Source of the DNA: Favolaschia claudopus
Lineage: Eukaryota; Basidiomycota; Agaricomycetes; Agaricales; Mycenaceae
Assembly: GCA_037176885.1 (NCBI GenBank)
Contig: JAWWNJ010000031.1
Coordinates: forward strand, 186,001 to 250,000
DNA length: 64,000 bases
Direction: 5' to 3'
Part shown: positions 1,363-57,033 of the stretch, one piece after another
Numbering within the stretch: position 1 is the first letter of the stretch
Layout: the number at the start of each line of letters is the position of its first letter
Notes under the pieces: model-generated
Databases searched by the model: none
Told to the model about the DNA's origin: nothing
The model's input: only the letters and a program-made list of their open reading frames with translations
Position numbers and translations under genes: made by a program

Positions 1363-2449
1363 TCATTCGTACGTCGACACGAAAGCAGAATGGGTAAGCT
1401 CGACCTTATAGTCCAGATTCGAATCCAAAGTATCCCCAGAGGTCGACCTTGTATTTGACCGAGAGTGTCCACCTATATTCCCCGACCCTCCCCACGAAAA
1501 CGGCATGCCAAACCGACTTCTCGCGATGCTACCTGAGGGATTTTTCACATCTGCAACCGACTGGACGACAACCTTGCCAGATTTCTTCAATGGAGTGGGT
1601 CGAATGGCGACTTTGAAGCCTCGTAAGAAAACGGTTTGGTTGTCCGTCCATACTTCCTCTCCAGGGCTGTATCGTGGACCTGAGTTGGCAAACGAGCTTG
1701 CACACTCCCATTCCCAAGCATACGAAACACTGCCTGACCCAACAAACGCTGGCTTGAGCTTCAGAGACAACTCACAACCATCGTAATTATTCTCCAGCGC
1801 TAACACACTCCAGGAGGTAGATTTGTCCACCCCTGTAACAAGATAAAGCTCGCCGGTCCCGACCATCCGATTAAGCTTGCCGTTCACGAAAATGTACCAT
1901 GATTGGGCATGCTTAATGGCGTAGTCTCGGAATATCTGAAGTGGGCGAAGGTTGCTTCTCGAGGCACCCTGAGGCAATAAAAGAACCGCTGTCGCTTTGG
2001 AAGACGTCGAAATCTCTACCACAGCACCGGCGCCGAGAGGGAAAAATCTAGCGGGAATTGTCAGCGAAAAAATTGAGGCTCTACAAGTTTTATTACACAT
2101 TGCCATCGACCCCAGCTTCGATATCCAGCCGGCGCTTATTGATCTTTGTATTTGATATATCGGTGCCTGGAGAAAAGTACATGTTCTTCGGCGCGATGTC
2201 CTCTCGATTCAGCATCACTTGTTCGAAGTTATCGGGAACACCGAATCGATTGAGGGGGTCGCTGGCAGATTTACAGATGTTGAAAATTGGATCGAACGAC
2301 CCATCAGCAGTCACTGTTCCCACATCCCCGATCTGTGTACCATTTTGGCGAGCTTCAAGCGGTAGATCGTCGTAGGGTTGAGGGTGGAAAAGCGGATATC
2401 CCTGCCCTTTGGCAAGAAGAAGGCGACTGTAGAGAAAGCTATCGGACAT
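1363..2449 (-). CDS. GYPLF-motif protein of an expanded basidiomycete family
   Basis: Two exons, 2097-2449 and 1363-2047, joined across a 49-bp intron (2048-2096) that keeps phase and gives about 345 residues. The N-terminus (SRLLLAKGQGYPLFHPQP, then IGDVGTVTADGSFDPIFNI and VPDNFEQV) matches a family I know from Agaricomycetes. In that family a GYPLW-like N-terminal block precedes a variable C-terminal region, and members are often annotated hypothetical and sometimes fused to signalling domains. Here the C-terminal part has Trp-rich strands (SWYIFVNGK, YAWEWEC) and then a Gly/Ser/Arg-rich tail. No signal peptide or membrane segment is visible. Function is unknown; family assignment is fairly secure, the role is not. 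Confidence 0.75.
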
Positions 2450-3789
2450 TTGGAGGGATTATTGGAATATTGGGTGCAGGACGTACCCGCTAATATATCA
2501 TTTTGCCTCGCGGTGAAGCCACCGCAGGGAGCTGTATGTATTTCCATTGTTTGACATAAGCTCTAGGAGATGCACCTGAGCGCTTGCGATGACAATGAAA
2601 AGCTTCTGGGAATGAGGCGTAGGGAGATTGTAGGACGATAAGTTAGTAACAAGGTCATAATCTCAACAGATGGAATTTACATCTCAAGTTGCGGCGGGGT
2701 GTGGCTCCCGGGGACAGCCTGCCAGTGGGGATCTCACTGCTATTTTGCAGCGCGACCAATCGCTTCGTTAAAGATAACCTCAGAGTAGACTCTCAGATTG
2801 AACCCGAAATTAGTGTAAATGACAGAGCCTCAGTCGATTGCCACAAATCGATCTGAGAAGACACCCCAGAGTACAGCAAAACCACAGCTTCAAGACACAG
2901 CTCATCCAGGCCACGTATACGAGATTTTTCGAGAGATAACACTTGTCGAAGTATGGCTTCGAGTACGCCCAAAATCGCTGAACAAAGCACAGACAATGGC
3001 CGAAGAAAATTCAATGAATTTAAATTCACGTCGTACATGTAGTAGTTGTATGCGGAGATTGAAGGGGAGTATATGCCAGAAGTGTGGGAGTGGGACTCGG
3101 CTATTTAAGCGAGTCCCACTATTGATCGGTTCTGCATGAACTGCAATCAAGTGGCGATCAGCAAATCAAACGTTCATCAATCCCCGGCATTAAGAGCCGA
3201 GGAGTGTATTTTATTTGTTTAATGTCTTTCTACAGTAGTTTCTGTACTAATATATTTCCTGGGGGGAACGTGGTTCCCCCCAGACCCCCCTCCTTTGGCC
3301 TGACGGCATATTTGATTAATTCTACCCACTAACTCGAGTTTTTTTGCTGTTTACTCCGTAAATTTAATTCATGTAGCGCGGGGGAGACCCCCGCGGACCC
3401 CCCTTGACGCTCGCCGCTAGGCCCACTGCGTGGTGCCGTCGCTCGCCGCTGGGCCCACTGCGTGGTGCTGCCGCTCGCCGCGGGGGCCCACTGCGTGGAG
3501 CCAGGAATATTTTAAAGCGTCGGGGCGTGTTTTTTATGCTAATTACGTGCAAATGATTCAGATCATATTTACTGATGTGCCGGCAAGCCGAGTCCCACTA
3601 TCAGAGCTCGAATCTCAACATCCGAGCATCCGAGTCCCACTATCGGCCTTTATCCGGGGTTTACCCGAGTCCCACTCCCACACTTCTGGCCATTCCTCAT
3701 TGAAGGGAGAGGGAGGCCTGAAGTTCGGCAAGGCGGCTGGGCCGTGTGTTTGTGTTGGCGAGGTAGGCCAAGGTAGGCGCGGCTGAATA
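2450..3789. other. Repeat-rich spacer
   Basis: No supported gene. It holds CGAGTCCCACT copies near 3084-3112 and near 3590, 3630 and 3668. There are two GC-rich hairpins with similar sequence, each followed by GACCCCCCTT-like runs (about 3259-3293 and 3378-3404). Between 3411 and 3500 lies a short minisatellite: about three copies of a 31-34 bp unit built on GCCCACTGCGTGG plus GCTCGCCGC. The combination looks like accumulated small mobile-element debris. Confidence 0.5.
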
Positions 3790-4076
3790 CTGTATAATTT
3801 CGTTCAATTCGACAGGGGGTGTGACGCGTGACCCCCCGAAACCGATTCGACAAGTCGACAGGAAGAAAATTTTGCGTGACCAAGCGCAAAATTCGGATGA
3901 AAAAAATTTCTAAACCGCAAAATCTTCTCTTTTTTGCACGATTTGGACACTTTTTTTCTCACCGTGACGCCCAACACGTTCGACAACGGCCGCCGTGACG
4001 CGGGACCAAAACGCGAAGTTCGGATCGACAAGAGGGTGCGTGACGCGGGACATCCGAATTGAACGTAATTATACGG
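3790..4076. mobile_element. MITE with ~22-bp terminal inverted repeats and TA target duplication
   Basis: The left end reads CTGTATAATTTCGTTCAATT; the right end read on the minus strand starts CCGTATAATTACGTTCAATT. Both are followed by CG and, after a short gap, a GTGAC-like stretch. TA flanks both ends (3788-3789 and 4077-4078), as expected for Tc1/mariner-type insertion. The 287-bp element has no coding capacity, so it is non-autonomous. A related 514-bp element lies at 30854-31367. Family placement (mariner/pogo-like) is inferred from the TA duplication and the CTGTA end. Confidence 0.75.
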
Positions 4077-5622
4077 TAGACGGCGTGATCAGAGGAAGGA
4101 GGAAGAAAAACAAACCAGGCACCAACCAGGCACGCACTTTTGCCCGTATACATACACATGGCGGCCGCATCCGTGTAGTGCTTTGAGTGGGCGGCGGGAG
4201 CGACGCCGGCGTGGTACGGCGGCTTTGAGTAGGTTTGAGTGCGTTGTGTGAGGCTGTGTGGTGGTAAGTGAGTGGCAGCAAAAAATAGCCTGTGACGACA
4301 TTGCAGTCACGGTCTCGTGACGTAACGCAACACGTCACCTTTACGCGTTCGTGTCGACCGCCACCATCTCGCGCGCGTTTTTCTGTTGACAATCCTCCGG
4401 ATCCCTTTTTGTTTAGCGCTTGAGTATAGCTGGGCTGCTGTCTACGGCTCAGGTCCCGTTTCCTTTCCTCTGCTCCCCCTCGCCCTCAGATCCCCCTTCA
4501 AGTTCAGTACGGCGCATAGAGCATGCACCCAAAGCTCCCTCCCGTCACACTCTACCTACAGCCGTTGCTGAAAGCGACACGAGCGGTTTTTTCTCCGCAC
4601 ACGAAACTAGCTCGCGGTTCTCCTTACCGTACACTTTGCGCTCCTTGAAGCGACCTCAGCTTATTCTTCTTACCCAGTAGAGCTTCAATGCATCACGGGT
4701 GGGTGTATTTATAACCATCGTCATGGGAGGAAGCGGATGTCTATTCTTTACTCCCGAAGACTCCAGATACCCATTCCTATCCTTAGACGAGGTTTCTTGC
4801 GCAGTACCAGCCTCCCGAGTTACTAGAGGGATGATTTGGCATTGAAACCGGCATAAAGCTTCAGCCTAGAGCCTGGTCATTTCATGAATTGTGGCTGACG
4901 ATCAGGTGTTTTCTCTCTCTTCGTCAACCAACTGGTTTAATGGTGTACCAGAGTCAAATTAGACTGTCAAAAGTTCCCGAATGTTGTTCGGCCGCGCACC
5001 ATCGCCAACCAAACTCTTAACGAATTTTGTTCACGAAATTGATTGAGGAGTTCAAGGTATCCCATCATCATCTTCCTGTTCGTATTTTAAAATTTAAACC
5101 CGCCACTGAGATTTCGATAGCATGCTGCATGCCTCAAGCCACATCTACTTATTTCACGATGTTTGGAGCAAGAAAGATCTGGCCTCCTTCTTTTTCATCT
5201 CAGGACATCTCACCACTCGCGATGGTAATCGGGATCTCACTACGCTCTCCGCCGGGAGTCCAGGACAGGAACTTGACCGAGCGTTGGACAAAGCCGAAGA
5301 AACATTCAGCAAATCCATTTCGGCCGAACAACACGTGCTTAACGCATGCCGTAATCGGCTATCCACTCCTTCAAGTTCTTCACCCACCTTGACCCTTCCT
5401 GTTTCTCGGGTTTCTGGATATTTCCAGCAGCACACTCGCGAATCCTTAGCCTTGCCTTTGACTCCGAGAGCCAAGGCGGTGACTCACCGTGACCGTCGTG
5501 ACTCTGCTTGACATGAATTTCGGAGTTGTGCACAGCCCTTGAAAAAACAAGCATCTCCCACCGGGCTTCCATTGTTTCTTGTACCTTTTCCACCAACAAT
5601 CGTCGTGCTGGGAGGCTCAGCA
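4077..5622. other. Spacer without a supported gene
   Basis: Several open frames of 60-130 codons exist on both strands, but none has recognisable motifs, phase-consistent introns or similarity to a family I know. The open frame at 5122-5511 is the longest on the plus strand and could include upstream regulatory or untranslated sequence of the F-box gene that starts at 5623. Confidence 0.4.
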
Positions 5623-8319
5623 ATGTCCCAACTATCACCCGAAGTCGACGACGAGCTCCTATCCCTGCCTTTCGTGGACGAAGACCCCTGCGGAGAGTTT
5701 GGAGGATCTCAAGGGCGTGTGCGAGATTTGACTCTAGGTAAGTGCTCAGCAACTTACCCTGTCCTGAGCTTCACGGCTCTAGCAGTCAACAATGTGGCCA
5801 TTGAATGCTGGAAGGCCCTCCGCATGCCCCAAAATCCAAACAAACCTGCAGCACAAGACTTGAGTCTCTTCCCGCAAATGCCCATTGACATCTTATTAGA
5901 GGTCGGTTCGCTCGTCTGAATCGTATTTCACGTCCGCTCACTCGTCCGCAAAGGTTCTCGGACATTTGCACCCCCTCGACGTCAGACACGTCGCTCGCGT
6001 GAACAAGGCGTTTCGAGGCCTCCTCCACGGTTCTCACGGTGAAGGCATCTGGCGCAATGCCTTTGTCGATCGCAAACCGCTTCCCGTGTGCCCCACCGAA
6101 ATCTCCGGTCGTCGGTGGACGAAATTGTTGTTTGGCGCGAGAGAGTGCGATGTGTGTTTTCTTTACTTACTTCGCAATCACGACTCACTCACACGACGCA
6201 GCAATGCGGAGCTGCGGACACGGCGCCGGATTATAGGCTATGGCGCCGACTCTGCACGGATTGTATGAACTCGAAGTGAGTGTTCCCCTTTCGCTTAGAA
6301 TATCAAGCTGAGTTTGGGTAGTCTCATAAGCAGCATTTCACCACACGAGCTCAACTCTCTTGTCGTGAAAACATACCGGGAGGGTTCGCACCTTTCTTTT
6401 TTTTTCTGCTAGGGTTCTCGCTCAAACTCCACAGACGGACGCACGTCAGCTGCTGATTCCCAATCCGGACGACTGTGGCCGGCAGACGTGAACGCCGTAG
6501 CCGAAGAGTATGAACGACTCAAAAGCGCCGATGCGGAGGCGTCTGAAGAATTTTCGCCAAACCTTCCAGCGTTCATCGAGGCGCGACGAGAAGCGGTGCG
6601 TGTCATCGAGGAGCGGGCGGAAGAGGCGGAAGCGTGGTCAGACCAAGTCCACGATGATTCCCTTCCGATGTGGGGCAAGCGATACAGGCGCGTTGTCAGA
6701 AGGTGCGTGCTTTTCTTCCTTGCCAAAGTAGCCAAACTGACTCTGACATCCAGCGTGCGGAAACGTCTCATAGAGGAGGGACACGATCCCCGGGACGTCG
6801 AAGACACCGACATGGACGCCAAAATGACCTACCTCGAAAACTTCCCCCGTCTCACCTCCAAGCGGTGGAACAAGGCGCGCCCGCACATCTTGCCTCTCGT
6901 ATACGACGCACGCGCAGAGCGACTGACACTCGAGCGTGTTCAACTCGTCGCAAACCGCACGTCCGCTGCCTGCTCTGCCGTTTCGCACGTCCTGCGAACA
7001 GCACCGGCCGAAACATGGGCTTATATCCCCCCGCAATACACCGTCGAGGCGATGCCGCAGCTGCAGGAGCTCATTCAGGATCCGTCCGACACTCCACTCA
7101 CAGACGATGATCCTCAGCTTGCAGACGCGGTGCTCGAGCTGCCTGCCTTCGTCGCAGCCTGGCGCGAAGAAAAACAAGCTCTTCTCGCCTCTTTGCTCCC
7201 TCTGCCCTCACTTCCCGCAGAGGCGGAATGTGGCCCTTCCTCCTCCTCCTCATCCTCATCCTTCACCCCAATCCCCCCACTCCCAGCCCCCCTTGCACGC
7301 CTCGAACTCGCCACAAGCGTCTTCACCTGCCTCGGCTCCTGGGTCGGCCGCATGTCCGTCACCGCCGGCCGCGCTCTCATCGGCTGGGCCGGCGCAGGCG
7401 CCCACCTCCGCTGCCGCAGCCTCAGAAACTACTGGGAACGCCGACCCCACTACGCTGCCGAAGGCGCTGCCACCGCCGCCGCACTGCTCCGCCTAGTCGA
7501 CTTGGACCCTGCCGTGACGACCGCGAAGCAAATGGACGAGGTGTGCGGGGGCGAGCTGCGCGGGTGCGGCGTGCAGGGGAAGACCGGGGGCCCGGATAAA
7601 CGGTTCGTGTGTCTGTTGTGTCCGGTAGAGGCTTGTCGGGGCGTCCGTGGGCGCCGCGCGATGCGGTGGAGGGAGTGTGTGCAACACTTCATCGAGCGCT
7701 CGAGGGTGGGTGGCGATGTTTCGCATCCGGGGGTGCCGCCTGCGTTCGGGCTGCTTACGGATGAGGCGGTGGATGATTTGCGGAGGAGGGAGGCGCCGGA
7801 TCCGGTTCTTGAGGATGCGGCGTGGGCCTGTGCGTTGTGTTCGGCGCATTATGATAGTCATAGTCGGACGACTTATGAGGGTGTCGAAGAGCATGTGCGG
7901 ACTCGGTGGGTTCTTTTGCTTTCTATCTGCTCTCTCGTCTCGTATGCTCATGCGAAGCAAACAGACACCAGATCGAAGATCCTGAGCAAGGCACGCACTT
8001 CCTCTATGTGGCGGGTTCGGAGCGCACGCCTCGTGTGCCTGCGCTTTTGTCGCAGGAAGGGAACGTCTTGGAGCTACGCTGTAATCGGTGCGTGAAGGGG
8101 AAGCTGCGGTCGTTGCGCGACATCAAGCGGCATGTTGCGGATAAGTGCGTCTTCCTTTCCTTTCCTTAGTGAGGGTGGAGCAGCTTAAGCTGAATCGATC
8201 CACGTAGACACGAAATTTCGTCCCCGAGTGGGGCGGACTGGACGAAGGTAGAGGTAATACTGCGGACAACCCCCCGTCCGTTGACTGAGGCCGAGGGCGA
8301 GGACCTCCATCTCGACTGA
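5623..8319 (+). CDS. F-box protein with zinc-binding motifs
   Basis: Nine exons: 5623-5737, 5786-5901, 5954-6151, 6202-6275, 6322-6364, 6413-6702, 6754-7905, 7965-8144 and 8208-8319 (759 residues; all phases match). The F-box is at about residues 68-110 (DLSLFPQMPIDILLEVLGHL, then LDVRHVARVNKAFR), so it probably recruits substrates to an SCF ubiquitin ligase through SKP1. A CDQC pair and an LCTDC pair follow across an exon junction, typical of an expanded Agaricomycete F-box family. The middle is Ala/Arg-rich with a poly-Ser/Pro linker. The C-terminus has a C2H2-like finger (CNRC ... KRHVADKH) whose last His appears only after the final intron is removed. The donor at 6365 (GTGAAA) and the exact start are the least certain points. 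Substrate unknown. Confidence 0.8.
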
Positions 8320-15600: not shown

Positions 15601-17129
15601 ACAACGTCGATAAGGAGTCCAGGCACGGATATGAAGCCGGGGTGTTGCGGACGGAGCCATGCCGCCCACAATACTAGTGAAAAAAGAAAAAGAAACTGAG
15701 TGACGCGACACATGCACGCAGAAAAAACACACGTACTGACGATCAAGATAGAGACCCCCAGCGCCAAACAAGCGATAGTGAGCACAAACCAGAAAATCTC
15801 AATCTCAAGCGTCGTGCGGACGGGCCGCTCGCTGTTGGCTTGTTTTGCAATTCGACCAAAAACCGTGCCGTCTCCGAGGCCCACTGCGATACCGATACCG
15901 CTGCCGCTTGTACAGAGCGTGCCCTGCAGCGCGATATTGCGGGATTCCATGACTATATGAATGGTTGACGATGACTTGGATATGGATAAAAGGAAAGGAC
16001 GCGTTGCATACAGTTCTTGTCGGTGCAGTCCAGTGAAGCGGCGACCTCGACGCTTTCCCCAGTCAAGATGGAGCGGTCGAACCTCAAGTCGGAAGAGATT
16101 TCCAGGAGGCGGAGATCGGCTGGGACTTTGGAGCCTAGGGTGATGGTCACGATGTCGCCTGAGACGAGGTCCGCTGCTGGAAGCCTATGAGAAGGGGTGA
16201 GCTTAAACGGAAGGATGATTACGCGTTGAGAGCGTACTTGATCTTTTCTCCCGCTCGAGTGACGAGGACGTCTGTGGGCAGAAGACCAGCTATAGATGCC
16301 ATGACGTGTCCAGTGGAATAGTCTGTGCGACAGATTGGTGAATGTAATTGATTGCAATGAAACTCCCACCTTGCCATGCATTGAAAGTAGCTTGGACGGC
16401 GATGACAGCGAGCAATACGACGGCCAATGCGAGATTCGGTGCAAAAGGGTGTGGGTCACCCAACGGACGCCTGCATAAGTTTCGCGACTTAGGAGGACTC
16501 TGAAGATAGCAAGAAGCCGCACCATGCAATGAAACAAATTATGCTGGCGACGAACAGCAAACCACCGAACCCTATGAGAGTTGAATGAGTGAGTACGAAA
16601 GAAGATGGCGGGGAACTCACCTCCGAAAATATAGAAAAATATCTTGCGGAAGAGATTCTTGGGCGGACGACTGATAACGTTCTTCCCGTTGGTCGCGAGT
16701 CGTCGTGATGCGATAGCCGTATCCAAACCATGGCTCGGGGAGACGCTGAGGCGGGTGCACACTTCGTCAGCCGCCAGAGTGTGCCATGTGACAGCGGAGA
16801 TAGCTGCAGGAATGAGTGTCGTAGACTGGAATGAATATCACCGCTCTACTCACTCTTGACATTTCCCTTGGTCTGGCCGAAATCCCCTCCATCCTGAGTT
16901 TCAGTGACATGTATACTATAGACAGAGGTATTAGAGCGGATGTCAGAATGGACAGAGCTCTAATTCACCTCAGAGTTCTGAACTCTCCGGGGATCTTGGA
17001 GCGAGGGTTGATAACTCGATTCGAGCCAAAGGACGAGGTGCGTCGAAAGTGGTGTCCTACTGGGGCCGCCTCTAAGGGCTCCGGGAGCACGGTGGATGAT
17101 GCGCCTGCTTCGAAGTCCTTCAAATCCAT
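12627..17129 (-). CDS. P-type ATPase, subfamily IIC-like (Na+/K+-ATPase-like alpha subunit)
   Basis: Twenty-three exons, from ATG at 17129 to TAA at 12627-12629, give 1095 residues, the usual size. Visible motifs: LTGES (actuator), AFIPEGLP (M4), [10 protein letters not shown] with phosphorylated Asp419, FNSRNKF and VKGAP (nucleotide-binding), VDPPRPE, MVTGD and [12 protein letters not shown] (P domain). They continue with M5-M10 ([36 protein letters not shown]), which resemble animal Na,K-ATPases far more than PMCA or ENA pumps. Fungal IIC pumps are known but their ions are poorly defined; Na+/K+/H+ exchange across the plasma membrane is the natural guess. The usual GDHPITA is GDFSSTA here. 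Intron 9 (15507-15574) must use a GC donor to encode PEGLP. No beta subunit is nearby. Confidence 0.92.
15507..15574 (-). other. Probable GC-AG intron in the ATPase gene
   Basis: Between exon 15575-15673 (…FIP) and exon 15467-15506 (GLPVCVTL…) the only join that yields the invariant PEGLP motif puts the donor at GCGAGT rather than GTGAGT. The acceptor is CTATAG. GC-AG introns are a known minor class. All other introns of the gene are GT-AG. Confidence 0.7.
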
Positions 17130-23645: not shown

Positions 23646-25010
23646 TACTATTTTCGATGTACCTCCTTCAAATCCGGCCCATTTTCTACGAACCAAGACG
23701 CGATCGAAGGCTGTTGATATCTGAAGGCTACTGGTGACATTACCTTGACACCGGAGGCGGGATTTCAGAAGATATAATGCCGGAAAGCCAGGGATACAGT
23801 CAAATAATCACACTGGCAAGTTTTCGATGTTTCTCTTCCAAATTTCTGTATTTTCATTCGAACTAAAGCCTCGTTATTCAGAGGAATGTCTCCCCGTTCT
23901 GCCTGTCTTATTTGTTCGGTGAGAAGATGTAAAACGCGCCGACGCGACATCACACAAGGTTGATGGTGGGAAAGTGGGTGTGCAGGTGAGCTTTGTTTAT
24001 ATCTCTGTTAATACTTGACCGGTTCATGGAAACTAAAGCTTCATTGTGTAGCTGAACATTCTGTCTATGCAGACAGGTAGTTTTCTCGGGTGGAACGATG
24101 GAGCCGCGCCCAAACGATCGGTCACACTGCCGAGGGTTGGAAAACAGGGTGTACAGGTAAGTTTGCATGCTTCTCTATCAATTCTTGCTCGTTCAACGCA
24201 AACCAAGGCTTCATTACATAGCCAGACATCCCCTCTATTCATCTGTACTCTCTCCGTGTCAAGAATTTCTGAAACGCGCCGAAACGATCGGTCACACTAT
24301 TCAGTGTGAGAAAGAATATGTGTACCGTAGGTTTCGCATGTCTCTCTATCAGTTCTTGCTCTTTCAACCCAAACCAAGGCTTCATAACATAGCCAGACAT
24401 CCTGCCTATTCACCTGTACTCTCGTCTCGTCCAGAGATTTCGAAACGCGCCGAAGCGTTTGCGCACAACATGGAGCATGGGAAAAATATGTGGATGGTAA
24501 ATTTTGCATGTTTCTCTCTCATCTCTTGCTCGTTCTACACAAACCAAAGCTCCAGTGAATAGCCAGGTTTCCTCTCCATCCACTCCTACCCTCGCCTCGT
24601 CCAGAAATCCAGAAACGCGCCGAAGCGTTTGCGCACAACATTGAGCATGGGAAAAATATGTGCAGAGTAAGTCTTGCATGTTTCTCTGTCAACTTCTGCT
24701 CATTCAACGCAAGCCAAAGCTCCAGTGCATAGCCAGGCACTCTCCCTATGTACCTGTACCCTCGTCTCGTCAAGAGATTCCGAAACGCACCGAAACGATT
24801 GGTTGCACTATTGAGTGTGAGAAAAATATGTGGATGGCAAGTTTCGCATGTTGCTCTGTCAATTCTAATTCTTGCTTGTTCAAGGCAAACCAAAGCTCCA
24901 TTACATGGCCAGGTGTCCCCTCTGTCCATCCGTACCCTCGTCTCGTCCAGAAACTCCGAAACGATCGCGCACAACAGCAAACTGGGGTACAGTACTGGTA
25001 AGTCCAATGC
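23646..25010. repeat. Tandem array of about eight 170-bp repeats
   Basis: Equivalent points (the GGTAAGT/GGCAAGT-like box followed by TTGCATG) fall at about 23816, 23986, 24157, 24327, 24496, 24667, 24837 and 24998, so the period is 169-171 bp. A more decayed copy begins near 23646. Units share GCAAACCAAAGCTTCATTACATAGCC, in pieces, and a CGAAACGCGCCGAAACGAT-like block. Each unit holds a donor-like GTAAGT and a CATAG acceptor-like site 60-65 bp later. The stretch between acceptor and next donor is open in one plus frame (KRAEAFAHNIEHGKNMW-like). The array lies between the divergent dioxygenase and transposase genes. Confidence 0.85.
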
Positions 25011-25662
25011 TTTTCACATCCGTTTGGGCTCTTTGCTTTCAGCCTGACATTCCATCGTCCAGAGGAGGATTGCATTGCTACTGCAGGACCTTACACTTTC
25101 GTTGAACGCGTGACATTTGTTTGCACGTCTTGTATCCATAAGTCACAAAATGTTCACGTGTTTCTTGATTGTTCTCCTGAACCATCGATCGATACAACCT
25201 CCTCAAACATGCCTTCTGTCGGTCATCTAATATCCATTTTGGATCTGTTTTTCCCCCCCGGCCTTGCTATCCAGCAGGCGTTCTATGTCCTGGGTGTCCT
25301 TGTCTCCCTTTTCCCCATCCTCCAACTGCACATAAATCAGCTCAATGAGGCCAGCCGACAGCGACCCGATACAGGCTGGATGCGTAGCATCAGAGCTCTT
25401 CTGATTCGTGCATTTCGGGATGAAGCTTACAGCGGCGAGGCTTGGCTCACAGGGATCGATTTGGCAGAAGAGTATTCAGATTACATCGCGAGGGACTTTG
25501 ACCGACTCTATCAAATGCTGGGTCTGTCAAGTAATACAACAGACCCTGCCTCCTTCCTGTTCCCCTCCCCCCAGCCTATTCTTTGCACCCGCCGTGTTGA
25601 CTGCAAATTCTGTCCACCCGAACACCGCAATCGGGTGCCATCTATTCGACGTCGTAGCAAGG

Positions 25663-25667
25663 GTAAA
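25663..25667. repeat. Left target-site duplication of the LTR element
   Basis: GTAAA immediately before the left LTR, repeated at 28325-28329 immediately after the right LTR. Five bases is the usual size for LTR retrotransposons. Confidence 0.9.
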
Positions 25668-26126
25668 TGTAAGGCTCCAGGAGCGCTTACGAGGGTCACT
25701 GTCTAACGGTATCCCTGGCGGGAGTGGAAAAGCCTTATTTTGTGGTAAAGACCCTTTCTTGAACGGTCAAGCTCGCAGAGAACTACAGAGAGTCGAATTC
25801 TCAAGCTCTCAGGCGTGGTTCTCTTCAATCCTTCGAAAACGAGAGGATTGGAGTCGACTGAGAGGGTGATCTGTAAAGATCAGTGGAAACAACCGTATAA
25901 CTCAGAGAAATAATGCCTCGCGCCTAGAGCCTCAATTAGAGCCTAGGCAAGGCAAAGATACGACTATCCAGCACCCGTGCCTCTCACAGAGCTTCGGAGT
26001 TACTCAACGAAAGCTGAGGAGGCGAATGGGTGATTTGGTAGAGGTAAAAGTGATAATTCTCATGTGACCTGAGTACATGTGACTTGTAGCTAAAAGAGTA
26101 AAGAAATACGTATATGATACCTTACA
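25668..26126 (-). repeat. Left LTR (3' LTR of the minus-strand element), 459 bp
   Basis: Identical by eye to 27866-28324 over the full length. It contains an internal inverted repeat around GCCTAG…CTAGGC (near 25925-25945). It supplies the last ~41 codons of the internal frame (to 26004). Confidence 0.9.
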
Positions 26127-27803
26127 GAGCCCCCCACTCTTGAGCTGCAAGGAAAAGAACATGTGCGAAGGGAGGGAATGGCGGGAGAAAAAATGAGAGG
26201 AAAAATTTTGCCCTACACTGCACCTTCGAGAAGCCTCCATAGCCGTTGACCCACCTGTCGCGGTTTCAAGGAGTCGTGTTTGCTCGTCTGCGACCTTTTC
26301 ATCCACGGTACGAGTTTTCTTGATTGAGGTGTTGCCCGACTGATACATACAAGCAGTCACCTCTTGCCCCCCAAAGTCGGTCGTGGATGGAATGCTGCTT
26401 ACACGCCCCCCACTCTGGACGCTCCGGCGGTTGATGATGCTAAGAGGGCTGGTTGAGTGGTGGGAGGATGAAATGCCAGTGAGTCGACTCTCCACATCAG
26501 CGCTAATGAGTCGCCGATGTATCATTCGCCCCCCAGACTCGACAGTGGAAGGGCCATTCTTGTCTGTAAGCCCAATGACGCTGGGTAGATGTTGACGAGA
26601 TCGGGAGGGAGCGTTGTGTTTGGTGAGTCGAGCCTTACTGTCAACGTCGCTGGGTTGCTGAATCTTTCGCCCCCCAAGCTCAGCTGCGACTCGGCTAGTG
26701 ACGTGAGGAGGAGCGGGAGGTGAAGCGGAGATGCGAGAGAGTGAAGAGACACTTTGTATGTTTTTGGTGAGTCGCGCCTCCGCGTTAGCGTTGATATGCT
26801 GCTGATAGAGGCTTCGCCCCCCAAGCTCGACCGTACGTTCTGACAATGCAGAACAGGGAGCGGGAGACGACACGGAAGAGGGAGTCGAAGCGGGGGAAAC
26901 TGAAGCTGTTACGGCGTTCTTGATGAGTTTCCGTTCCTCGTTACTGTGAGTCCTTAGCTGATTCAATCGCCCCCCACGATCGACCCTTTCTTCGTGTTTA
27001 GCGGAAGACGGAACGGGAGATGTGAATGGAAGCGAAGAAGACACAGAGGGTGGTGATAATGGAGACGATGCAGAACAGGCAAGTTGCTGCAGTCGTCTTT
27101 CGCCCTTCGAGTTTGCTAAGCGCTCCGCTTTTAAGTGCTGTATCCTGTCGTATACTGATATATATCCCTTTTGGCCCTCACGCTCATCGCCAACGGTCTG
27201 GGCAATGACGCGAGAAGCGGAAAGAGGAAGGGGAGAAATGAGAGGTGGCGCGACAGCGGTTTCGATCCTTTCCGTGAGTCGATGATCTTCTGCCTGGATG
27301 CCAAAGCGGACAAGTAACGCTCGAGGGAGTTGGAAACGGAGTTCAACGGGGAGAGACTTGATCAGACTGCCCATCTGTGTAGGACGTTGAGAGGTTGACA
27401 CCGGATAACCAAACCAAGTGGCTTCAAGATCTGCCATAGCGCCGTATAGTTTGTCGAGGAGGAGCACCCAGTTCTGAACGACTTGATTACGAGTAGCCAG
27501 TAGACCTGTGAGGTTGCATAGGATGTGCAGCTCTTCATGTGCAAATGTCTGGGAGCCATACAACCCAATGTGCGGGAGAGCTAGATAAAGAAGTTGTCCG
27601 AGTGCAGGCACGATGTTTTGAATCACTTCGACAAGTTCTGAGTGTAGCACAAAGCCACCGTGCAGTAGGGAGATGTGGCATGGAAGGAGGACATGCTTAG
27701 TGAGAGAGGAGCATGTCTGGTGAAGTGAATCCATTCCAATCTCGGAACGAGGAGAAGTAATATATTTCGACCAAATGAAATCCAAAGTGTAAGGGTCCGC
27801 CAT
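26004..27803 (-). CDS. Unknown protein of the LTR element with GGR-type internal repeats
   Basis: The first ATG is at 27803 (MADPYTLDFIWSK) and the frame stays open to 26004, about 599 residues; it is also open upstream to the LTR junction at 27865. The N-terminal ~230 residues are helical and hydrophobic-rich (ELVEVIQNIVPALGQLLYL, then TRNQVVQNWVLLLDKL), without signal peptide or catalytic motif. Five to six imperfect repeats of about 45-50 residues follow, each with [LRS]GGR, then an [AE]xRLTK-like block, then a Ser/Pro-rich linker. It has no CCHC knuckle and does not match a gag I recognise. Position and orientation make a structural (gag-like) protein the simplest guess, but a captured host gene is equally possible. 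The last 41 codons lie in the LTR. Confidence 0.55.
   Translation of the reverse strand: MADPYTLDFIWSKYITSPRSEIGMDSLHQTCSSLTKHVLLPCHISLLHGGFVLHSELVEVIQNIVPALGQLLYLALPHIGLYGSQTFAHEELHILCNLTGLLATRNQVVQNWVLLLDKLYGAMADLEATWFGYPVSTSQRPTQMGSLIKSLPVELRFQLPRALLVRFGIQAEDHRLTERIETAVAPPLISPLPLSASRVIAQTVGDEREGQKGYISVYDRIQHLKAERLANSKGERRLQQLACSASSPLSPPSVSSSLPFTSPVPSSAKHEERVDRGGRLNQLRTHSNEERKLIKNAVTASVSPASTPSSVSSPAPCSALSERTVELGGRSLYQQHINANAEARLTKNIQSVSSLSRISASPPAPPHVTSRVAAELGGRKIQQPSDVDSKARLTKHNAPSRSRQHLPSVIGLTDKNGPSTVESGGRMIHRRLISADVESRLTGISSSHHSTSPLSIINRRSVQSGGRVSSIPSTTDFGGQEVTACMYQSGNTSIKKTRTVDEKVADEQTRLLETATGGSTAMEASRRCSVGQNFSSHFFSRHSLPSHMFFSLQLKSGGLCKVSYTYFFTLLATSHMYSGHMRIITFTSTKSPIRLLSFR
26127..26145 (-). 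other. Candidate polypurine tract
   Basis: Read on the minus strand it is AAGAGTGGGGGGCTC followed directly by the TGTAAGG start of the LTR. The position fits second-strand priming. Near-identical GTGGGGGGC boxes recur inside the coding region (about 26404, 26528, 26669, 26813, 26968). Confidence 0.55.
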
Positions 27804-27865
27804 GACGGAGGGAGATCCAAGGAGATCCAGCCAGGGGGTTACGACAGTTCCCAATGTGTCCACTT

Positions 27866-28324
27866 TGTAAGGCTCCAGGAGCGCTTACGAGGGTCACTGT
27901 CTAACGGTATCCCTGGCGGGAGTGGAAAAGCCTTATTTTGTGGTAAAGACCCTTTCTTGAACGGTCAAGCTCGCAGAGAACTACAGAGAGTCGAATTCTC
28001 AAGCTCTCAGGCGTGGTTCTCTTCAATCCTTCGAAAACGAGAGGATTGGAGTCGACTGAGAGGGTGATCTGTAAAGATCAGTGGAAACAACCGTATAACT
28101 CAGAGAAATAATGCCTCGCGCCTAGAGCCTCAATTAGAGCCTAGGCAAGGCAAAGATACGACTATCCAGCACCCGTGCCTCTCACAGAGCTTCGGAGTTA
28201 CTCAACGAAAGCTGAGGAGGCGAATGGGTGATTTGGTAGAGGTAAAAGTGATAATTCTCATGTGACCTGAGTACATGTGACTTGTAGCTAAAAGAGTAAA
28301 GAAATACGTATATGATACCTTACA
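27866..28324 (-). repeat. Right LTR (5' LTR of the minus-strand element), 459 bp
   Basis: A full-length match to the left LTR, with no difference seen by eye, which implies a very young insertion. The promoter of the element should lie here if transcription runs on the minus strand. Confidence 0.9.
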
Positions 28325-28329
28325 GTAAA
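28325..28329. repeat. Right target-site duplication of the LTR element
   Basis: GTAAA directly after the right LTR; partner of 25663-25667. Removing one copy plus the element restores the transposase frame. Confidence 0.9.
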
Positions 28330-30105
28330 GACCAGAGAGTATGGCTCCTTGACGCAAATTTCAGGTGGATCTCGGCGGATCTATTGGTCGGGGAGTGCGC
28401 GCGTTGCAAGGCAATCTATTACCCCGATACAATCACGAGAAAATCACCAGGGAGGAAGCGTGTTCAGGAGTTGGAATACGATGCGGAATACTTGCGCGTG
28501 TCAAAGCATGGAGTCTGGGTTCATCGGAAGATTGCTGAAGCCCAGGAAGCAGCGTTGCTTGACCTACGTTCGGGCTGGTCCAGATGGGCTGACTGGATTA
28601 ATCGGCTCACGAAGGATGTCAATGTCAAATTCACGTACCGTCAATCCCAACGACTATTCATGGAGCATTTCTGTCGGCGACTGCTTGTCTCTCATGGGAA
28701 ATCAGCCGGTTTCACTTGTGAAGCCCATCCGCCCACTCGGGTACTTGCCGAGCTTGTCCGAGAACGAATTGGGAAAAACGGTGGTGTCATTGCTCGGGCC
28801 ATGACACATGGTTGTAAGGATTGTACCCATGTGAAGAGATATAGGGTTGTCGGTGTTGGCGATGAGCAGGATGAGGGGGGAGACAGCACTGGTATAGCAG
28901 GATTTGACTCCACTGCAGACGTGAGTCGCCAATCTTTGAATTGAATCTCTCTAAAGAGCTACTCAGATGGAAACACCTCTTCCACCCAATACGGTGCCCC
29001 AGCCGTTACCGCCCAACCTACCTCAGGCATTACCGCAGCAAGAGGCACCTCCGCCTGGCTCACCTCGGGGCCACGTCCGATTAGGAGTTATGGACGGCAA
29101 GACTTTCAAACACAAGGTAGTCTTGACCAATTCAGAGAAGCCTTGACTCGACTCATGGTTACCCTACAGAAATGTGCTCTGCCTGACTGTGAAGGGCCCC
29201 TTGTTAACTTTAAAAACGGTCGTTTTTGTCAAACTCATTTGGATCATGAAAGTATTTGCGGTATACTGGCTTGCGGCCGCCCTACGGAATCTGCGGAGTC
29301 CCTTACTTGCAATGACCAGGCCCACAAAGACTGGTACAAGCAATATGAGCAACGTTTCCTCCGCCTGTCTTTTCCCGGTGTAAAACGGGTCATTCGCCGA
29401 CAGAACCAGGATGCTGCGGATGAGGAGAATCCAGATCCGCATGGACCAACCCTTCAGGTCAACCTACCAGCCCTGGGGAATACTCCGGGTCAACAGGTGG
29501 TGCACACGTTCAAGGCACGGTCAATCTACTGCATAGAGACCATACAGTGGGCATGCGGCTTTCCTATTGGATGGGGAAAGTGCTACCGCGGAGAGGGCCC
29601 CTCTCAGGTCCTCTCGTTCATCAACAAAGTCTGGGAGGACTATCCTGAAGCACGACCCAACTTCATCGTCTACGACAAAGCATGTGAGCTTCTCCGGCAC
29701 ATCGTTACTCAAAATCCATCCGATGCATGGCTCAATACGACCAAATTCATTGTCGATGCCTGGCATTATATTTCGCACAAGGCTGGGGATGTGTTGTGTC
29801 GTACCTGGTGTAATCCTGCCCCTAAAGATGGATCCCAGCCGGATTTGGTATTGACGGAGGTGGACGACAACGGGACAGCACATCAGACAAGGGCATTCAA
29901 CACGGAAACTGCTGAACAATTCAACTCTTGGCTCAATGGGTTTGAAGCACAGGCTCGTCAAATGACGGACGTTAATTTTGACTTATACATTCACGTTCTG
30001 ATGATGCTTTATATGGAAAAAATGGAGGAAACAATCACTCGCAAGGACCGGTGGCTGACTGAGGATTTTCTGGATGCAGTCAATGGTTTGACGGAGGATA
30101 TTTAG

Positions 30106-45980: not shown

Positions 45981-47190
45981 ATGTTACCCCACACTCCACT
46001 CGAGCCGCCGCGAGCTCCATTTGCGTCCTCCAGCACCCCCAGCTCCAGTCGTAGCAACTCTCCAGGCCCGTCCGGCAGCTCAGTTTCCTTGCAAATCAAT
46101 TATGTTCCTGTCAAATTCTCTTCCCCCGCAGTACACCAACGCCTCCACGGCAGAGGAAAGGCACCCATAACGAAGCTCGGCGGCGGCGTCGATGCGTTTC
46201 GTGCAGGCGAGTCTCGTATGCCCGCATCTAATGAACGTGATTACGACGGCGTGGACGTACGCGGCAAGTCACGTCGCAAAGCAAAATGGAATCGATTTAA
46301 ATGGGTCCTTGTCTGCTCAAATACAGTTGTATGTGTCCTACCGTCCCACTGATATCTTTTTGCGCTCATATAAATGCAGTATACTTCGGTCGCCCTCGCG
46401 GCGCTTGGCTTCACTCTCACAACCTGGCTGGGTGTACAGACGACGGCGGATGTCGTACGAGTCGGGAACCATGCAGAGCTGATCCTAACAACACTTGCGG
46501 CATCCACCGCCCTCCTCACATCACTCATCGGTTGGGCTGGAATCCTCCTCAATAACAGAGGCTTTCTTGCCGTCTACACATTTCTCCTTTGGATCTCCTT
46601 CATCTTCCTCGTCATTCCAGGATACATCACATATAAGAAGTTCACCTTCAATCTCGATGGAAAGATCAGCAAGCAATGGTCCCGGGAAATCGGTACCCGA
46701 GGGCGCCTTCGCATACAGAATCAGCTCAAATGCTGCGGGTTCTTCAATCCTTTTGTGGAGGCCACCTTGAGCACGACTTGCTACTCCCGTAGCGTTCTTC
46801 AAGGATGTAAGGAGCCTTATTTGGACCACCAGAAGCGCGTCCTTCAGCTCTGGTTCACCGCCATATTCAGCTGTGTACCAATCACGATTGCGGCGATTGT
46901 CGCTGGACTGCTTTGCTCGAATCATATCACTTATCGCTTTGGCAAAGGCATGATGCCTAAGGCGTACCGCCTGAACGCGGAAAGTATGGCTCAGATCATG
47001 GACTCCTACGCTACGTGAGTTTTATCGTTCGTCGCATTCTTCTGCAATACTCAGGCGATACACCAGGAGACTTGCGGAGGAATATGGATCGGACCAACCT
47101 GATGAGGTTCTCAGGCTGCGTTCGCGCTCACTCAGTACTAGTACCTCCGACCTTGACCACCAATTAGTCACCGAGAGAAAAGTGGACTAG
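45981..47190 (+). CDS. Tetraspanin-like four-helix membrane protein
   Basis: Three exons (45981-46328, 46380-47014, 47055-47190; 372 residues). A Ser/Pro-rich and then basic cytosolic N-terminus of about 110 residues precedes four membrane segments (YTSVALAALGFTLTTWLGV; LILTTLAASTALLTSLIGWA; FLAVYTFLLWISFIFLVIPG; LWFTAIFSCVPITIAAIVAG). The large loop has the CCGF signature and two further Cys (TTCYS, QGCKE), as in tetraspanins. The C-terminus is charged and cytosolic. Tetraspanins organise membrane microdomains; fungal members act in polarised growth and host penetration. The last intron is only 40 bp. An upstream in-frame ATG at 45843 is possible, but 45981 is preferred because the preceding stretch looks untranslated. 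Confidence 0.85.
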
Positions 47191-55094: not shown

Positions 55095-57033
55095 ATGCCC
55101 GATAAGTCTGTGGGGATTTTGGGTAAAGTAGGCGTATAGTACCTTTTAGATGCGGTGTCTAAATCCTCGCTTAGATTTCCGCCGATTCTGCGTTCAAATC
55201 CATTGTAACGTTCTCCAGGTGGGGGCCAGCTTGGTCGTATGCTAGCGGCGGCAGGATCCCTGCTGAATATTAAAATCGTCATTCTGGATGTCGGAGAACA
55301 CGCCCCAGCAAAGCAGGTTCTCGCCCCATTATCCAGCCAATATTCCCACATCGACGGCGCGTTCACGGACTCTGCTCGAATTCAAGAACTTGCAGCCAAA
55401 GTGGATGTGCTAACCGTTGAAATTGAACATGTCGATGCAGATGCGCTAGCTGAAGCGAAATGCGACATTCACCCCCGGCCGTCCACGATCAAACTCATAC
55501 AGGACAAATTCGCGCAGAAACAACATCTACAGGCTCGTGGGTGCCCAGTCTCTGAATTCATGGCCGTGGATTCGACAGTCGAGTCCATACAAGTTGCGGC
55601 GAGCAAACTCGGACTCCCACTGATGCTGAAAAGTCGTACTTTAGCTTACGATGGGCGAGGAAATTTTGTTCTGCGCGACGTCTCACAAGCATCAGACGCG
55701 CTGGCTGCTCTCGGTGATCGCCCTTTGTATGCAGAAAAGTGGGTGCCTTTCACCCACGAAATTGCCGTCATGGTGGTACGGGGCACAAGTGGCGAGGTGA
55801 AGGCGTACCCTGTGGTGGAAACGGTTCACAAAGACAATATCTGCCATCTTGTTTTCGCGCCTCTACGGAGTCGGGACGGGACTTTATCTCGCCGCGCTCA
55901 AGCTGTCGCCGAGAATGCCGTCAAAACTTTTGAAGGCGCCGGCGTATTTGGTGTTGAAATGTTCCTCATGAACGACGGTGACCGTTTTCTCCTACTCATG
56001 TCCCGAAAAAATCCTTAAATCATTCAGGCAGTATCTACATCAACGAAATAGCTCCTCGGCCGCACAACTCAGGACACTACACAATCGAAGCTTGCGAAAC
56101 CTCACAGTACGAGAACCACCTTCGGGCGATCCTGTCTCTTCCTCTCGGTTCAACTGCACTCAAAGTTCCGTCCTGTGCCATGTTGAACATCATCGGCCTC
56201 TCTTCTTCGATGACGGAAATCACCCACCTCACAGACGTCGCCCTGACCGTTCCCGGCGCAAGCGTCCACCTCTACGGCAAATCCGAGTGCCGAAAAGGAC
56301 GCAAAATGGGGCACATAACCGTCGTCGCCGAATCCGACGCCGAACTCCGCACCCGGCTGCGCACCCTCTTGAAAGCTCTCCCATCAAGCCCAATAGACGA
56401 GACAGATCTATACGCTCCCGCCGCACAGATCCCCGGCTCGGGATTCTCCAGCCAGCACCCCCTCGTGGGCGTCATCATGGGCTCCGACTCCGATCTGCCA
56501 GTCATGCTCCCGGCCGCGCGTATCCTCGATCATTTCCGCATCCCGTACGAGCTCACAGTCGTATCTGCGCATCGCACCCCAGACCGGCTCGTCGAGTATT
56601 CGCGCTCTGCGGCCTCACGCGGGTTGCGCACGATCATAGCAGGAGCCGGAGGCGCTGCCCATTTACCAGGCATGGTCGCCGCGATGACCGCCTTGCCCGT
56701 TATCGGTGTTCCGGTCAAGGGCAGTACCCTCGACGGAGTGGACTCTCTGCATAGCATCGTGCAGATGCCTGTGAGTTTGCCTCCATCTTTCGAGTTTCCT
56801 GTGTCTTGCGGCGGCGACTAACGTTTTGTCATAAGCGTGGCATCCCAGTTGCGACTGTCGCCATTAACAATGGAACCAATGCCGGGCTGCTTGCTGTTCG
56901 TATTCTAGCCGCTGGTATACCCCGCCTCATAGATGCGATGGACGCATACCTCAAAAATCAGGAGAACGAGGTTCTTGAAAAGGTGGAGAAACTCAAAGAG
57001 GAGGGATGGGAGAATTATGTCGTCAAGAAATAG
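55095..57033 (+). CDS. ADE2: Phosphoribosylaminoimidazole carboxylase (ADE2)
   Basis: Four exons (55095-55122, 55219-55977, 56028-56770, 56836-57033; 575 residues, the usual length). The N-terminal PurK-type ATP-grasp half begins [16 protein letters not shown] and includes [30 protein letters not shown] and [15 protein letters not shown]. The C-terminal PurE half has [22 protein letters not shown] and [20 protein letters not shown]. It catalyses carboxylation of AIR to CAIR in purine synthesis; in fungi both activities are fused and cytosolic, and loss often gives red or adenine-requiring cells. The first exon is only 28 bp. Divergent from RSA3, so shared growth-linked control is plausible. 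Confidence 0.95.

Follow-up and report, generated by a model that had tools for sequence, protein, structure and literature searches.

The window analysed here, a 64,000-nucleotide stretch of the 264.6-Mb Favolaschia claudopus genome (G000:C31:186001-250000), carries a long terminal repeat (LTR) retrotransposon within a KDZ-associated CxC5 gene (Table 1). The element is bounded by two TG...CA LTRs of 459 bp, identical letter for letter, and by a perfect 5-bp target-site duplication, GTAAA. A purine tract, AAGAGTGGGGGGCTC directly followed by TGTAAGG, adjoins the left LTR, and a stretch resembling a primer-binding site (PBS), AAG-TGGACACATTGGGAA, lies just inside the right one. Since both are on the minus strand, that strand is the sense of the element, and the purine tract is a polypurine tract (PPT) adjoining the 3' LTR. 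A preliminary description had already noted the indistinguishable repeats, the duplication and the purine tract in the interval 25663-28329, all of which stand; the interval comprises the element and both duplications. The feature is a real, very young, non-autonomous LTR insertion.

Joining the flanks at one GTAAA, a reconstruction of the empty site, gave a single open frame, as the preliminary description had stated. The downstream part alone matched CxC5 (PF18718) with 42 bits over profile positions 31-115, and the joined frame with 50.3 bits over positions 5-115; the element therefore sits within the CxC5 domain. A CxC6 domain follows downstream in the Pfam scan. The host had been called a KDZ transposase; the KDZ-associated CxC5 and CxC6 domains agree with this, but the KDZ catalytic domain was not found in the frames scanned. 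That the LTR insertion is later than the CxC5 gene that it interrupts is supported, and the identical LTRs fit the very recent date proposed for it.

Searching the genome with the window LTR gave 138 candidates, and many of the 40 matches scored form pairs separated by 7-8 kb. Among twenty regions retrieved, 11 complete long copies were tabled, of 7109-8072 bp, including two pairs of equal length (C69a/C69b and C47t1/C47t2). Their LTRs are 92-97% identical to that of the window copy in ten cases and 83% in C66. Within elements, the two LTRs are identical in 10 of 12 (window copy counted) and differ by one mismatch in C81a and C47t2. Ten of the long copies have ten different perfect 5-bp duplications; C47t2, outside that table, has unlike flanks and is part of a tandem array. 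A sister LTR type (L049, C26:1254414-1260400) has LTRs of about 372 bp, the same PPT and the same C-terminal protein motif. Of 80 listed PBS sites, 31 are followed within 30 kb by the stop motif described below and then a PPT, 25 of these within 9 kb. The tandem array, G000:C47:1098186-1115718 (L037, L048), consists of LTR-interior-LTR units of about 8.5 kb, which suggests a segment duplicated after insertion. The two C69 elements (L033, L034), separated by about 15 kb, are oppositely oriented and differ in their target-site duplications.

When the window interior was used as query, 55 matches were obtained (40 of 113 candidates scored), the sole full-length one being the window copy itself. 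Other copies match query bases 1-119 at 93-99%, the block 119-314 at 94% and parts of the open reading frame (ORF) at 70-84%. Some 4.5-5.4 kb present in the long copies, between mid-ORF and the last 119 bp, is absent from the window copy, with a junction near ATGGAGGCTTCTCG; the LTRs, leader, PBS and PPT are retained. On this comparison the 2.66-kb copy looks like an internally deleted relative of the 7.1-8.1-kb elements. Because of its similarity to C26 (80.5% over 1663 columns) and C47 (87% over 1019 columns, 5' LTR included) and its partial interior matches elsewhere, it would be a deletion derivative of a type-B lineage, the direct parent being absent among the copies seen. A single short copy is compatible with a deletion that preceded the jump or followed it. 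The preliminary description had taken the window element to define a non-autonomous family; it is non-autonomous and has no polymerase, but the 2.66-kb form was found once and probably derives from longer elements. Between C33 and C69a, identity changes from 80% over the first 1.7 kb to 93% at 3626-4714, 99.5% at 5358-6020 and 97% from 6021 onwards, a mosaic that suggests recombination between copies.

The ATG of the window ORF, at 27803, lies 59 bases beyond the first base of TGGACAC, and its stop codon is at 26004-26006, inside the LTR. No Pfam match was obtained for its 599 residues at E<=1, in keeping with the earlier statement that the one long interior frame has no polymerase motifs. The stop-free run of the interior is 579 codons, against a maximum of 427 in 100 order-2 simulations; for C33 the values are 1099 and 418 (n=100). 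All 11 complete long copies have one long sense ORF with a common start and a conserved end (REGIGT/REGVGT), of 802-1528 aa from the family ATG (nine distinct copies and two duplicates). There are two N-terminal types, with small variations, M[AV]NPYLDWIWS and MADPYTLDFIWS. In loci read in part the ORF measures 228-322 aa (C4, C36, C81b, C215), 842 aa (C29) or 1120 aa (C2), and in C26b it is cut by the locus end. The window ORF represents the N-terminal portion of the long protein of the family, joined by the deletion to the 3' end and LTR; the novel protein announced earlier is family-specific, but the window holds only part of it. Splicing from the conserved ORF end was considered and rejected, GTACGT, GTAAGT and GTATGT being absent there in four copies searched.

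Seven of the 11 long ORFs were sent to Pfam and none scored above the cut-off, the weak matches being UBM, DUF4611 and an omega-toxin model (E 0.026-0.21). Ten downstream ORFs of C33 and C34 gave nothing above the cut-off, and L049, with a stop-free frame of 1098 codons, gave no match at E<=0.1. Searches of 5.8 billion proteins, the first two of three scoring about 8000 candidates sharing most words, returned six matches (P0001-P0006), all F. claudopus by name. P0001 is a gene model joining an Spt5-NGN protein to the family ORF, apparently annotated across an insertion. A structure model of the N-terminal 207 residues of the window protein, built from 7 sequences, is mostly helical, with a mean predicted local distance difference test score of 68. 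The first 150 alignment columns have a Nei-Gojobori omega of about 0.23, which shows purifying selection on the N-terminal part of the ORF. Two further windows, with one and seven pairs, give 0.34 and 0.40, and over the whole ORF the eight pairs tabled differ at a dS of about 0.8-1.2.

A polymerase was sought in several ways. Using tblastn at E<=1, Ty3 gag, Ty3 pol and Ngaro-type reverse transcriptase (RT) probes found no match in 12 elements or in L049; a diverged RT inside the genome copies, which the preliminary description had named as a finding that would overturn it, thus did not appear in those 12. One of nine other loci did match (L040, pol, 22% over 406 residues, E 1e-21), inside a copy with PBS and PPT 23.7 kb apart, and because of this distance the match is read as a nested element. 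None of the 150 RVT_1 places scored, of 2109 candidates, lies within the 31 units of PBS, stop motif and PPT. In the complete copies analysed, RT, ribonuclease H (RNase H), integrase and protease were not recognised. The genome search proposed earlier accordingly produced other copies, 11 of them complete and long, but no autonomous partner with matching LTRs among them.

The Ty3 element at C4:2809650-2819046, of which 6.25 kb was read (L052, L055, L054), is apparently autonomous: Retrotrans_gag was matched at E 1.1e-4, just under the cut-off, and in its open pol frame RT, RNase H and the beginning of integrase can be recognised by eye. Its family has five LTR pairs 9.2-9.4 kb apart, and the PBS core is common to it and the family of the window copy. 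It was rejected as matched partner since the LTR termini differ, PBS and LTR termini being the criteria used for wheat (PMC9744471). A helper sharing the PPT, of the GTGGGGGGCTCTGTGA class, was also sought and rejected: L050 holds what is by eye a nested Ngaro/DIRS-type RT, and L051 holds non-coding repeats without the exact PPT. In L050 the Ngaro/DIRS-like RT frame occupies 2429-4714, with split direct repeats at 2264-2493/4970-5199 and 4857-4976/5285-5404. The repeat family to which both belong (C21:1156499) has 336 candidate places, with the PPT GTGGGGGGCTCTGTGA in many copies and long non-coding repeats in L051.

The PBS core TGGACACATTGGGAA occurs at 191 exact genome sites, against 0 for the control. 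ARAGORN identified tRNA-Ala(AGC) in L056 and L060 with the 3' end ...GTTCAATTCCCAATGTGTCCA; once CCA is appended, this end predicts TGGTGGACACATTGGGAA as the PBS. Fifteen bases of the family PBS match this tRNA, and the complement of CCA is replaced. The triplet at that position is AAG in the 12 family elements tabled, AGG in L049 and TGG in L052 and L053. During reverse transcription a CCA-bearing tRNA would tend to rewrite the triplet, and for this reason priming from a CCA-less tRNA-Ala end is proposed. Two other readings were rejected: a tRNA 3' end starting at TGGACAC places G at base 61, and shifting by CCA gives a canonical end, found in tRNA-Ala(AGC) genes; Tf1-like self-priming is left with an LTR-leader complement of only 7 bases. 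Other tRNA-like 3' ends occur in L057, L058 and L059, the last of which ends in CCACCA and may itself be a PBS, copied over a longer part of a tRNA than is usual.

The octamer TGGGGGGC, the core of the PPT, is repeated through the interiors. Each of ten elements has 7-13 sense copies (PPT included) and 0 antisense, against expectations of 0.03-0.17 (order-1) and 0.48-0.98 (order-3, simulated maxima 2-5). In the 61,333 bases of the window outside the element it occurs 0 times on the plus and once on the minus strand. In L049 there are six (PPT included) besides one G7; the pieces read of the Ty3 element contain no TGGGGGGC but a G7 PPT and one internal G7. The repeated octamers may act as extra plus-strand primers. 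Multiple PPTs are known in plant Sireviruses (PMC2829016), and are therefore not new as a trait. Both systems have several identical PPT octamers per element; Sireviruses are described there as Ty1/copia elements with pol whose extra PPTs cluster close to the 3' LTR and seldom occur elsewhere, whereas in the present family they run through the ORF as well.

Around the ORF stop, CCTGCGTC and GACGCAGG could base-pair in most of ten aligned copies, as could CTGAC and GTCAG farther downstream; one G-C/A-U double change appears in four rows. The stop motif occurs at 58 sites at <=2 mismatches, against 12 control sites. Paired cells amount to 88.6%, reached by 0 of 500 shuffles; two of 14 pairs change on both sides, reached by 367 of 500 shuffles, the rows being related, and the RNAalifold covariation term is unfavourable (+1.21). 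Hairpins at the stop are possible but, with these mixed shuffle controls, no more than suggestive. Rfam at gathering scores gave no match in L029, L031 and L049.

Taken together, the window copy is probably a recent, internally deleted member of a diverse, apparently still active non-autonomous LTR lineage that is moved in trans. RNA would be made from the LTR, and the long protein, possibly a private Gag-like or RNA-binding one, would be translated from it. RT and integrase would be supplied in trans, most likely by a Ty3-type element; tRNA-Ala(AGC) would prime the minus strand, and the repeated TGGGGGGC would provide plus-strand primers beside the 3' PPT. Several points weigh against this. 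No enzyme donor was identified, and the LTR of the Ty3 element at C4 begins differently (TGTCATGG), while its PBS includes the CCA complement. RVT_1 scoring covered 150 of 2109 candidates, and the nested reading of L040 is unproven. A PBS of the family class at C7:1946333 is followed 7.2 kb downstream, on the same strand, by an RVT_1 match (C7:1953550, frame of 1015 aa), with no family PPT or stop motif listed downstream; either a nested element or a member that carries pol could account for it. Omega rises to 0.51-0.88 in twelve later windows with >=9 pairs; pS is 0.52-0.79, and dS is near saturation. The start codon of L049 was not located, and L050 and L051, from another repeat family, each carry two TGGGGGGC on one strand. 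The N-terminal structure model found no PDB fold at E<=0.001, which leaves the Gag-like character a guess.

The donor might be closer to the family than the Ty3 element at C4. Among the PBS sites, four from classes ii and iii (C15:451103, C71:119675, C7:1241718, C8:2831654) are followed 11.3-11.7 kb downstream by a PPT-like match in the right orientation, a length sufficient for gag and pol, and their equal spacing is itself an argument. That the 5-8-kb copies are parasites of such gag-pol members of about 11.4 kb, which would share the unusual PBS and begin their LTRs in a related way, is a fair way short of established but a real possibility; it is compatible with movement in trans and would name the donor. 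The PPT-like matches, however, carry one (C15, C71) or two (C7, C8) mismatches, single matches are weak at that level (272 at <=2 mismatches against 154 for the control), and none of the 150 scored RVT_1 places falls there. The four sites are nevertheless better candidate partners than L052. A long-lived polymerase-less lineage, with a private structural protein unrelated to known Gag, CCA-less tRNA-Ala priming and many internal plus-strand starts that would explain the mosaic genomes, seems to us improbable, though it merits mention.

The long protein could instead be a divergent Gag, which would make the family a fungal counterpart of TR-GAG elements. A single ORF directly after the leader, the helical N-terminal domain predicted by the model and the single-ORF LTR structure of TR-GAG elements (PMC8704663) speak for this. 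The protein, on the other hand, matches neither Retrotrans_gag nor a zinc knuckle, although the Ty3 gag of the same genome does match Retrotrans_gag, itself just under the cut-off; that Ty3 gag has no tblastn match to the elements, and the model has no fold match. We consider the proposal doubtful. Less likely still is that the TGGGGGGC repeats are a mere DNA shadow of a repeated protein motif (LGGR/GGQ/GGL). All 53 copies inside the ORFs of ten elements are in one phase, and spacings of 129-150 bp are common; yet nine elements also hold 28 copies, the PPT not counted, in non-coding 3' DNA, in part at comparable distances from the PPT, and GGG is used in 151 of 240 Gly-Gly pair codons against 97 of 571 other Gly codons, counts that are non-independent because copies share descent. 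An assembly artefact, which identical LTRs might suggest, is scarcely credible in view of the perfect duplication, the restored frame and the recurrence of this architecture at many sites that differ in their duplications.

The usual fate of non-autonomous LTR families is decay to a non-coding shell or retention of a recognisable gag. Large retrotransposon derivatives (LARDs) are usually described as non-coding, without a long conserved ORF; by that usage the present family, which keeps a long ORF, is not a LARD, as the preliminary description had held. A LARD reported in Laccaria bicolor (PMC3411680) is nevertheless comparable in being a large LTR-type element without pol in an agaric. The plant TR-GAG elements share the LTR structure, the one ORF and the lack of pol; they have a recognisable GAG close to that of an autonomous relative (PMC8704663), and neither was found here, where the long ORFs tested have no Pfam match above the cut-off and the N-terminal model has no fold match. 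RLG_Sabrina and RLG_WHAM of wheat and barley (PMC9744471) form whole populations without RT and integrase, some variants having their own ORFs, and share the PBS with an autonomous Ty3 family otherwise little similar. There, Sabrina_SA encodes a GAG-protease; in the F. claudopus family no gag or protease was recognised in the ORF of 802-1528 aa, PPT cores run through the ORF, and no matched partner was found. The literature searched, with most subscription papers outside reach, contained no paper joining Favolaschia to transposons and no report of this family. With its long ORF, PPT cores scattered through the interior and an atypical PBS, the family is an unusual form of a known kind of element, the non-autonomous LTR retrotransposon.

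The ORF of 802-1528 codons has stayed open between copies diverged at dS of about 0.8-1.2, with no pol detected and young LTRs. With this family one can test which protein an element without polymerase requires, where its enzymes come from, and whether internal PPT cores drive plus-strand starts and recombination. If the deletion preceded the jump of the window copy, the lost part is not needed in cis, and the cis signals are narrowed.

Table 1. Features of the insertion and of the interrupted frame (positions in the window)
Feature	Position	Strand	Basis
CxC5 (KDZ-associated) frame, interrupted, 5' part	25002..25662	+	frame joining, Pfam
Target-site duplication GTAAA, left	25663..25667	no strand	sequence
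3' LTR (element sense), 459 bp, sense TGTAAGG...CCTTACA	25668..26126	-	identical to other LTR; genome copies
Single long ORF, 599 aa, N-terminal part of family ORF, end inside 3' LTR	26004..27803	-	ORF comparison; no Pfam match
Conserved 3' block (interior-query bases 1-119, first five still LTR)	26122..26240	-	93-99% identity in other copies; deletion fuses ORF to block
Polypurine tract AAGAGTGGGGGGCTC adjoining 3' LTR	26127..26141	-	same junction in long copies
Internal PPT core TGGGGGGC	26366..26373	-	sequence match
Internal PPT core TGGGGGGC	26405..26412	-	sequence match
Internal PPT core TGGGGGGC	26528..26535	-	sequence match
Internal PPT core TGGGGGGC	26669..26676	-	sequence match
Internal PPT core TGGGGGGC	26816..26823	-	sequence match
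Internal PPT core TGGGGGGC	26969..26976	-	sequence match
PBS-like stretch AAG-TGGACACATTGGGAA	27848..27865	-	15 bases complementary to tRNA-Ala(AGC) to base 73; AAG replaces CCA complement
5' LTR, 459 bp	27866..28324	-	identical to 3' LTR
Target-site duplication GTAAA, right	28325..28329	no strand	sequence
CxC5 frame, interrupted, 3' part	28330..28944	+	frame joining, Pfam

Elsewhere in the genome, G000:C13 and C25 have matches at identical coordinates near both contig starts, as if the ends were duplicated. Just upstream of the CxC5 frame the window contains a 170-bp tandem repeat (24156-24963; about 4.7 copies, 75% matches), and Pfam identified ordinary genes for a P-type ATPase fragment (15956-16762), a tetraspanin (46374-47015) and an ATP-grasp enzyme (55239-56015).

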